The notes under the pieces were generated by a model. It had not been told where the DNA came from, made no database searches, and saw only the letters and a list, made by a program, of their open reading frames with translations. A program made the translations under genes and the position numbers. 27,848 nt of DNA from a virus. Location of the stretch: the IMG/VR virus record IMGVR_UViG_3300025840_000197, positions 1-27,848 of that record, one strand, 5' to 3'. Position 1 is the stretch's first letter. The number at the start of each line of letters is the position of its first letter. Shown piece after piece: positions 3,810 through 22,056 of this stretch.

Positions 3810-4134
3810 GGGACGTAGACTACAACAGTGGTTTGCAAATCTTTTAATTGAAACTCTAAACCTTGATACAGAGGATTTAGAATCTCGTCCTATGGGTTCT
3901 CAAGGTGAGGACATCATCTTAGGAAAACAATCTAGACAAATCTTCCCTTATAGTGTAGAATGTAAGAATCAAGAATCTGTTAATGTATGGAAAGCATACG
4001 AACAAGCTTCTGAAAATTGTAAGGGGTATGAACCTTTAGTTGTTATTAAACGAAACAATCATAAACCTCTTGTAGTTTTAGATGCAGAACATTTTGTGAG
4101 ATTAATGAAACATTGTGAGATTAATGAAACATGA
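3784..4134 (+). CDS. Small PD-(D/E)XK nuclease, Holliday-junction-resolvase-like
   Basis: This is a 116-residue protein if started at the ATG at 3784; a GTG at 3772 would add four residues. Its central motif is SRPMGSQGEDI, then FPYSVECKNQ, which gives the Asp and Glu-x-Lys of a PD-(D/E)XK active site in the compact arrangement of archaeal-type resolvases and related phage nucleases. A basic N-terminus (KTSSAKAKGRR) would suit DNA binding. It overlaps the end of the Fe-S carrier gene and shares ATGA with the next gene. Its last codons lie in a 19-base tandem duplication that changed the C-terminus. The fold call is fairly sure; the substrate is not known. Confidence 0.7.
   Translation: MKTSSAKAKGRRLQQWFANLLIETLNLDTEDLESRPMGSQGEDIILGKQSRQIFPYSVECKNQESVNVWKAYEQASENCKGYEPLVVIKRNNHKPLVVLDAEHFVRLMKHCEINET
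4094..4131 (+). repeat. Perfect 19-base tandem duplication at a gene junction
   Basis: The unit TTGTGAGATTAATGAAACA occurs twice head to tail (4094-4112 and 4113-4131). Since 19 is not a multiple of 3, the second copy is read in a different frame and forms the last residues (CEINET) of the nuclease. Removing one copy would make that gene end HED-stop, reading into the start of the next gene. Confidence 0.9.
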
Positions 4135-12466: not shown

Positions 12467-12544
12467 GTCCTCTTAGCTCAGTTGGAATAGAGCATGTGCC
12501 TTCTAAGCACAGGGTCGGGAGTTCGAATCTCTCAGGGGACGCCA
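12467..12544 (+). tRNA. tRNA-Arg(UCU) with encoded CCA
   Basis: A complete cloverleaf can be drawn. The acceptor stem is GTCCTCT/AGGGGAC, the D arm is GCTC/GAGC, the anticodon stem is TGTGC/GCACA around loop CTTCTAA (anticodon TCT), and the T arm is GGGAG/CTCTC with loop TTCGAAT. Discriminator G and an encoded CCA (12542-12544) complete it. It reads AGA, the most frequent arginine codon by eye in this window, so it may support translation of AT-rich phage genes. It lies in an early transcription unit between two small protein genes and must be processed from that transcript. Confidence 0.96.
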
Positions 12545-20396: not shown

Positions 20397-20404
20397 TATA
20401 AATA
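20397..20404 (+). promoter_or_regulatory. T4-type late promoter upstream of gp32
   Basis: A perfect TATAAATA lies 125 bases before the gp32 start, with transcription expected near 20410. Together with the promoter at 20432 it would allow gp32 to be made both early and late. The 202-base gap between gp59 and gp32 otherwise holds only these sites and the leader hairpin. Confidence 0.55.
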
Positions 20405-20528: not shown

Positions 20529-21419
20529 ATGACATCATTAGATAAGCTCAGAGCTGCAATGGAAGCAGCAACTCCCACAGCCAGTGGAGAGAAAAAATCC
20601 TACAATGACGATAGATATTGGAAACCTGAACTCGATAAGAGTGGTAACGGGTTTGCAGTAGTTCGTTTCCTACCAACTCCCGAAGGTGAAGAAATGCCAT
20701 GGGTCTCATACTGGGATCACGGTTTTCAAGGGCCTGGTGGATGGTATATTGAGAAGTCTCTGACTACTCTCAATAAACAAGACCCTGTGTCAGAATACAA
20801 CACTCAGTTGTGGAACACTGGGATTGAGGCAAACAAAGAACAGGCACGTAAACAAAAAAGACGTTTACACTATGTGTCTAATGTCTTCGTAGTTTCAGAC
20901 CCTAAAAATCCTGACAATGAAGGTAAAGTCTTCTTATACAAGTTTGGGAAGAAAATCTTTGAACAACTCAAAGAAGCAATCTCACCTGCATTCGAAGATG
21001 AACAAGCAATCAATCCTTTTGACTTGAGAGAAGGTGCAAACTTCAAAATCAAAATCAGAAAGGTTGATGGATACTGGAACTATGATAAATCAGAGTTCGA
21101 TTCAATTACTCCACTTTTTGAGGACGAAAATAAGTTAACTGAGATATATACTAAGGCACATTCTTTAAAAGAGATTGTTGCACCAAGTGAGTTCAAAACT
21201 TATGAAGAACTTAAAGAGAAACTTGATAGAGTCTTAGGACTTTCAGGTGGAGTATCAAACTCAACAGCTGAATCTGTTGCAGAAGACCTAGACGAAGTGC
21301 CTTGGTCAAATGTAAACAGTGCAGTTGCAGAAGAACCAGTAGTGTCATCTGTTGAATCTTCTCTTAGTGAAGACGAAGACGATGCAATGGACTACTTCAA
21401 GAGATTAGCTAACGACTAA
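20529..21419 (+). CDS. 32: Single-stranded DNA-binding protein gp32 (zinc site absent)
   Basis: This 296-residue protein coats single-stranded DNA in replication, repair and recombination. The basic N-terminal B region, the OB-type core (WVSYWDHGFQGPGGWYIEKS, then LHYVSNVFVVSDPKNPDNEGKV split by a short turn, and FKIKIRKVDGYWNYDKSEFD) and the very acidic C-terminal tail (SLSEDEDDAMDYF) are all present. T4 gp32 binds zinc with one His and three Cys. The histidine region is kept, but the stretch where the cysteines should be reads LNKQDPVSEYN, and the whole protein has no cysteine. The loss of the zinc site is the notable difference from T4. AGGAGA precedes the ATG. Confidence 0.95.
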   Translation: MTSLDKLRAAMEAATPTASGEKKSYNDDRYWKPELDKSGNGFAVVRFLPTPEGEEMPWVSYWDHGFQGPGGWYIEKSLTTLNKQDPVSEYNTQLWNTGIEANKEQARKQKRRLHYVSNVFVVSDPKNPDNEGKVFLYKFGKKIFEQLKEAISPAFEDEQAINPFDLREGANFKIKIRKVDGYWNYDKSEFDSITPLFEDENKLTEIYTKAHSLKEIVAPSEFKTYEELKEKLDRVLGLSGGVSNSTAESVAEDLDEVPWSNVNSAVAEEPVVSSVESSLSEDEDDAMDYFKRLAND

Positions 21420-21434
21420 TTACTTGAGTTGGGG

Positions 21435-21590
21435 GGTGGTTGTTATACAATGAGTGTCCGTGATATAGACAACCACCATCGACTGAGACCGTGGATAAAA
21501 AGGGGGTGCTCAGTAGGGGTAAAGACATCAGCATCAAGCGGGGTGTCTGTGTGAAGAGCGGGTTGCTGTAACAGCTGGGGCTACTTCACA
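21435..21590 (+). ncRNA. Structured RNA of four consecutive hairpins before viral bS21
   Basis: The 192-base gap has no reading frame worth calling, is G-rich against the AT-rich background, and folds almost fully. H1: GGTGGTTGT plus TATA (21435-21447) with TATA, a bulged G, ACAACCACC (21464-21477). H2: ACTGAGACC (21482-21490) with GGT, bulged G, CTCAGT (21505-21514). H3: AGACATC (21523-21529) with GGTGTCT (21542-21548). H4: TGTGAAG and AGC (21550-21559) with GCT, bulged A, CTTCACA (21580-21590), capped by GCTG-TAA-CAGC (21565-21575). Six runs of three to six Gs recur. A CTTTTAAT stretch after H4 could weakly terminate. It may be a leader controlling bS21, a free RNA, or the structured 3' end of the gp32 message. 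It matches no family I can name. Confidence 0.7.
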
Positions 21591-21611
21591 ACTTTTAATA
21601 AGATATAATAT

Positions 21612-21845
21612 ATGAGTAAAGTAACACCAAGAATAGACCATAAAACAAAATTTGTTGAACCATTTGACAGAATGTTACGTAGGTGGAAGAAAGCTTGTGA
21701 AAGAGCTGGTATTGTTCAAGAAGTTCGTAGTAGAGAATTCTACGAGAAACCTGCATCTATTCGTAATCAAAAAAATCAAGACTTGCTTAGAAAGAAAAAA
21801 CTTCAAGCAAAACGAGAGTCAGCAAAGGGATATCGTAGAAGGTAA
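21612..21845 (+). CDS. rpsU: Phage-encoded ribosomal protein bS21
   Basis: This 77-residue protein is a clear bS21: [36 protein letters not shown], then a lysine/arginine-rich tail, matching the bacterial protein (about 70 residues) along its length. bS21 sits near the anti-Shine-Dalgarno end of 16S rRNA on the small subunit and affects initiation. Phage copies are known in pelagiphages and can replace the host protein. No Shine-Dalgarno sequence lies before the ATG (AAGATATAATAT instead), and the hairpin-rich RNA ends 21 bases upstream. It could steer ribosomes to phage messages; that is inference. Confidence 0.93.
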
Positions 21846-21849
21846 AAAA

Positions 21850-22056
21850 ATGAATGGCAAAGGTTCGAAACAGAGACCTCTTTCTGTTTCAAAAGATAAA
21901 TTCGATTCAAACTGGGATTCTATTTTCGGAAAGAAACTAGAAACTAAAGTTCGTAAGGAAACTCCTAAACACGGACTGACCAGTGTCCATCTTGATAAAA
22001 CAAAATATAATCGTAATAAGATTAAGCAGGAACTGCTGACACCCGACTTGCACTAG
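21850..22056 (+). CDS. Small conserved phage protein, KGSKQRP type
   Basis: This 68-residue basic protein begins MNGKGSKQRPLSVSKDKFD and SNWDSIFGKK, a pattern common among small phage proteins of unknown function. The ATG at 21850 is chosen because it begins the recognisable family start, although the frame is open far upstream. The gene starts 4 bases after bS21, so both are on one transcript. Its end overlaps the convergent tape-measure-like gene by 35 bases with no visible terminator. It may bind RNA, judged only by charge and position. Confidence 0.7.
   Translation: MNGKGSKQRPLSVSKDKFDSNWDSIFGKKLETKVRKETPKHGLTSVHLDKTKYNRNKIKQELLTPDLH

Follow-up and report, generated by a model that had tools for sequence, protein, structure and literature searches.

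A structured RNA of four hairpins was found directly 3' of the gene for gp32 in a 27.8-kb stretch of a T4-like marine phage genome (i.e., the whole of the DNA analysed here, referred to as the window), and comparison with related phages established, from sequence, its fold, its strand, its fixed site after gp32, its presence as a single copy per genome and the late promoter motif that precedes it in one branch. The best explanation of these features, to which we assign a probability of roughly 0.6, is a new family of gp32-linked structured phage noncoding RNA that would be transcribed alone and late in that branch (type II) and form the 3' terminal part of the gp32 transcript in the remaining phages (type I), including the source of the window. 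The RNA is new to Rfam.

In the window, the gp32 single-stranded DNA-binding protein gene (20529..21419, + strand; Pfam PF08804, E 1.9e-40; PHROG 224, E 9e-107) is preceded by a candidate T4-type late promoter, TATAAATA, that matches the consensus exactly (20397..20404, + strand) and is followed, beyond the RNA, by the gene for ribosomal protein bS21 (21612..21845, + strand; Pfam PF01165, E 7e-13). The late motif was present within 250 nt upstream of gp32 in 21 of 112 type-I relatives. Pfam and PHROGs searches also identified the gp59 helicase loader upstream and, on the opposite strand, tail and baseplate genes and the DNA end protector. Among isolates, the nearest gp32 DNA sequence was that of Pelagibacter phage HTVC008M, with 74% identity across the matched portion. 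The window also contains a tRNA-Arg (TCT) gene at 12467-12544 and, 3' of bS21, a small ORF at 21850-22056 (MNGKGSKQRP...) without a Pfam or PHROG match, a homologue of which lies directly 3' of the RNA in one relative (L030).

The observation made in the initial annotation at 21435-21590 was confirmed. The minimum-energy fold returned the same four helices, a single bulged base was present on the 3' strand of three of them (H1, H2 and H4), and 5 of the 32 runs of four or more G on this strand of the window fell inside these 160 bases. Folding of the 206-nt region was 3.0 sd below that of dinucleotide shuffles, with 1 of 200 shuffles equally good, and a 162-nt stretch, with a GC content of 49% as compared with 36%, was more stable than every one of 1,026 tiles taken from both strands of the window. 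The conserved core of the RNA spans 21481-21596. H1 (21435-21447 paired with 21468-21477, element 21435..21477, + strand; 13 bp with its inner part in the minimum-energy fold) lies outside this core and is variable but always there. Its stem differs between relatives, while its loop region often reads AUGUGUCC..GUGA. Although H1 was too variable for alignment, it was present and stable in 65 of 65 distinct cases, all of which folded better than their own shuffle mean (mean z -2.35).

The core begins with H2 (P2; 21482-21490/21505-21514, + strand), which is composed of 6 bp, a bulge and a further 3 bp (9 bp in all) closed by a GUGGA...GGGG loop, the GGGG of which was invariant in an alignment of 26 sequences. 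The purine linker J2/3 (21515..21522, + strand; consensus AAGGGNAA, AGGGGUAA in the window) leads to H3 (P3; 21523-21529/21542-21548, + strand), a helix of 7 bp with an AGC...GCGG loop. The outer stem of H4 (P4; 21550-21559/21580-21590, + strand) has 10 bp, with 4 bp inside it (21565-21568/21572-21575), a G-rich internal loop (GCGGG / GGGGC) and a tip hairpin of consensus GCU-GUAA-RGC that reads GCUG-UAA-CAGC in the window. H4 is followed, after about 2 nt, by a U-tract (21593..21596, + strand) that ranges from 2 to 7 in length among relatives, a layout suggesting that it is likely a weak terminator and the 3' end of the RNA, although a terminator scan of the window did not report the site. 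Conserved G-tracts occur in the H2 loop, in the linker (65 of 65 sequences) and on the two sides of the H4 internal loop (63 of 65 and 65 of 65), and these tracts may form a G-quadruplex.

Relatives were collected by protein searches with gp32 and bS21, which gave 128 viral loci, and with a pair of DNA patterns from the core, which matched at least 120 contigs apiece. Together, the patterns and protein searches place the RNA in at least some 200 uncultivated marine phage contigs. bS21 was the next gene after gp32 at 36 of the 128 loci, separated from it by a gap of about 180-300 nt except at L008 and L010, and the gaps between the two genes contained conserved motifs in a common order with stems that differed in sequence. 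A covariance model, R1, built from the RNAalifold set of 26 sequences, recovered all 100 pattern loci tested. Type-I copies were partly gathered with a pattern that contained part of H2, which biases the collection toward that H2 sequence; copies reached solely by a protein search (gp32 or bS21) had the identical fold. The RNA was present once per contig in 14 contigs of 55-151 kb.

Covariation among the relatives established the fold, with compensatory pairs in H2, H3 and H4. Among 65 distinct relatives, 97.0% of paired cells stayed paired, as compared with 81.2% after shuffling and 30-44% in slid controls, and compensatory two-sided changes were seen at 20 of 29 core pairs (among them 5 of 9 in H2, 6 of 7 in H3 and 6 of 8 outer and inner pairs in H4). 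Pairing was retained in 98% of cases for H2, 99% for H3 and 86% for the H4 tip. The number of two-sided cells was 285, versus 69 in shuffles, and none of 500 shuffles reached the observed value. The 65-sequence alignment was fitted to R1 and leans to structure for that reason; this bias is a minor concern, however, because RNAalifold independently predicted H2, H3 and H4 from a MAFFT alignment of 26 sequences, with two-sided changes in 15 of 24 pairs, and because of the size of the effect. G-U cells (121) were far more frequent than A-C cells (15) and, therefore, the + strand is the RNA. These findings indicate that the folded RNA is real and strongly conserved.

A scan of all column pairs revealed one clear additional pair, between the first base of the linker that joins H2 to H3 and the third base of the H4 tip stem. 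This pair was A-U in 57 sequences, U-A in 7 and C-G in 1, and was canonical in 65 of 65. Since the U-A cases belong to one similar group and the C-G case is one sequence, the changes represent about two events, and the contact is a probable tertiary pair.

The fixed neighbour of the RNA was gp32 rather than bS21. The RNA was directly 3' of gp32 in all 137 scored copies, whereas bS21 was within 150 nt downstream of the RNA in 109 and about 900 nt away in 19, past an inserted ORF of about 295 aa; in the remaining copies bS21 was not downstream (contig ends or type II). The inserted ORF, which lies between the RNA and bS21 at L008, L010 and about 17 other loci, reads by eye at L008 like a DNA methyltransferase with a CPPY motif. 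At 35 other viral bS21 loci (L094-L128) the RNA was absent. As judged from synteny, the RNA belongs to the 3' side of gp32 and not to bS21.

In agreement with the initial annotation, bS21 in this genome starts 21 bases past H4 without a Shine-Dalgarno sequence. An SD-like motif was noted in about half of 80 distinct type-I spacers, and 10 of the 80 lacked an SD and had a TATAAT box placed exactly 6 nt ahead of the ATG of bS21 (L020, L023, L165, L173, L245, L294, L303, L305, L330 and L336), with a close variant in an eleventh (L216). Several of these spacers also had a TTGACA-like box 17-18 nt upstream, and their sequences identify them as sites of a sigma-70-like promoter for leaderless bS21, located between the RNA and the gene. 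The U-tract contained 6-7 U in 10 of the 11 promoter-bearing spacers and mostly 3-5 in the others (p = 1e-4, ignoring relatedness). The association of a longer U-tract with a separate bS21 promoter fits termination after the RNA in these phages and read-through in the others.

Type II is a divergent branch of 21 loci with 13 distinct, closely related RNA sequences, in which the loop elements UGGGG, GGAAAG, GCGG, CGGU and GCGGG...GGGGC are kept. A perfect TATAAATA separated the stop codon of gp32 from the RNA at 11 of 11 type-II loci with distinct gp32 upstreams, as opposed to 0 of 112 type-I loci, where no recognisable promoter was seen at this position. Downstream of the type-II RNA, an ORF of about 500 aa runs in the convergent direction with its stop at the end of the RNA, and most loci have no long forward ORF there; bS21 is on the other side of gp32, about 2.6 kb upstream. 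Because of its own late promoter motif and the convergent gene downstream, the type-II RNA would lead no gene. By contrast, the type-I RNA of the window, which is followed by bS21, could function as a cis-acting 3' UTR, given that no recognisable promoter separates it from gp32. The type-I model R1 matched 9 of the 13 type-II loci given to it, as well as L030 and L028, at the syntenic site with E 0.003-0.28, and these were the only matches in 118 kb; the link between the two types rests on these modest E-values together with synteny and the common loop motifs. L030 is intermediate, with TATAAATA before the RNA, the H4 tip retained and bS21 upstream of gp32.

The view of the initial annotation that no named family fits the RNA was upheld by searches of Rfam 15 (cmscan, gathering score and E<=1) with the window and eight relatives, which gave no match. 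The models searched included small-subunit rRNA and ribosomal protein leaders, neither of which showed similarity to the RNA, and the identical search did detect tmRNA and a glutamine riboswitch in phage Melnitz, which are structured RNAs of a related marine T4-like phage but of different families. Only chance matches and no copy of the RNA were found among phage isolates by DNA similarity, and no copy was found around gp32 in HTVC008M, Mosig, Melnitz and P-SSM4; in HTVC008M, Mosig and P-SSM4 an ordinary intrinsic terminator was present 3' of gp32. The sole pattern match in a GTDB genome was rejected by the covariance model. IMES and GOLLD are complex structured noncoding RNA families of marine metagenomes, known mainly from uncultivated sequence. 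The present RNA resembles them in being complex, conserved and mainly from uncultivated marine sequence but differs in that it matches no Rfam 15 model, is tied to gp32 and is preceded by a late promoter motif in one branch. An RNA of this kind was not found in the open-access PMC literature, where viral bS21 in pelagiphages is on record (PMC6375957, PMC7029224) and where a riboswitch search in pelagiphages failed (PMC7029224).

Several other explanations of the RNA were considered. That it is a cis-acting 3' UTR of gp32 mRNA, i.e., a terminator and stability structure for an abundant message that stops at the U-tract after H4, is unlikely, even though the RNA immediately follows gp32 in every copy, the U-tract is longer in phages with a separate bS21 promoter, and phages that lack the RNA (HTVC008M, Mosig and P-SSM4) carry a canonical intrinsic terminator at the equivalent place. 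These gene-32 terminators share with the RNA their site and a hairpin with a U-tract but consist of a single short GC hairpin as opposed to four covarying helices with invariant loops and a likely tertiary contact. Neither the loops nor the tertiary pair would be needed for termination alone, nor would cis protection need the type-II late motif between gp32 and the RNA. The proposal that the RNA is a viral bS21 leader or rRNA mimic, i.e., a structured 5' UTR that governs read-through or translation on binding bS21 (autoregulation) or a ligand, was not borne out and fails as a family-wide function. In most type-I phages the RNA is, like the autoregulatory leaders in Rfam, a structured RNA upstream of a ribosomal protein gene; the U-tract before bS21 could serve as an attenuator, and the SD sequences of about half of the distinct spacers could be used by a read-through mRNA. 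The RNA nevertheless tracks gp32 (137 of 137 copies), is separated from bS21 by another gene (19 copies) or by the promoter of a leaderless bS21 in many phages, has gp32 between itself and bS21 in type II and L030, is missing from the other viral bS21 loci and has no match to ribosomal protein leader or rRNA models. Such a role is, on balance, improbable.

bS21 adjoins the 3' end of 16S rRNA. Binding of the G-rich linker and loops to that end (i.e., to the anti-Shine-Dalgarno sequence), by which the RNA would act on ribosomes with viral bS21, could account for the SD-like unpaired linker of both types (UAAGGGAAAG / AUGAGGAAAG) and for the presence of bS21 close to the RNA in almost every carrier observed. 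Short purine matches are, however, expected by chance in G-rich loops and no start codon follows the linker, so that we consider this idea very improbable. That the fold is stable by chance, or that the element works as DNA and has no function as RNA, is scarcely credible, being refuted by the covariation on the + strand, the conserved loops and the synteny of 137 copies. Three local readings were also rejected. An ORF starting at the AUG of the H1 loop reaches a stop within five codons in L001 and is not coding; the bases of a promoter-like TANATT motif inside H1 vary with their pairing partners across relatives and probably reflect structure; and a kissing contact between GUCC of the H1 loop and GGA of the H2 loop was not supported, as judged by eye, since GGA persists where GUCC is lost.

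The preferred reading, a gp32-linked family of RNAs that are either independent or derived from the 3' UTR, partly accords with the earlier suggestion of a free regulatory RNA. Covariation, the lack of an Rfam match and the late promoter motif in a related branch agree with that suggestion, but no promoter of its own was recognised in type I. In type II, the TATAAATA motif would be used as a promoter, from which the RNA would be transcribed alone past the gp32 stop to end against the convergent gene. In type I, it would be carried on the 3' end of the gp32 transcript, which would stop at the U-tract or continue in part into bS21. Late in infection, a discrete transcript of about 150-200 nt would be expected to accumulate. 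The covarying contact between linker and H4 tip could produce a compact core that presents the invariant G-rich loops, which are likely contact sites and might bind in trans to a protein or RNA of the phage or its host. Still more tentative, and rather doubtful at present, is the proposal that the RNA represents an undescribed class in marine T4-like phages, late, compact, always after gp32 and acting in trans (e.g., on the ribosome with viral bS21, RNA polymerase or an RNase).

These results add a well-supported structured RNA family that has no counterpart in Rfam or in the collection of phage isolates searched here. The late promoter motif ahead of the RNA in one branch suggests that the transcript may be a product in its own right, and the constant location after gp32 poses a concrete question, namely what role a structured RNA has late in infection in this large set of marine phages. 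A distinct conserved element, GGUAUACUAG...UCCUUGGUGUGCAGUAAG...ACACCACA, was noted 3' of gp32 in a separate group of marine phages, at L033, L034, L035, L039, L052 and L251 (Melnitz, 3827-4033); it had no Rfam match and, at several of these loci, precedes a canonical terminator.
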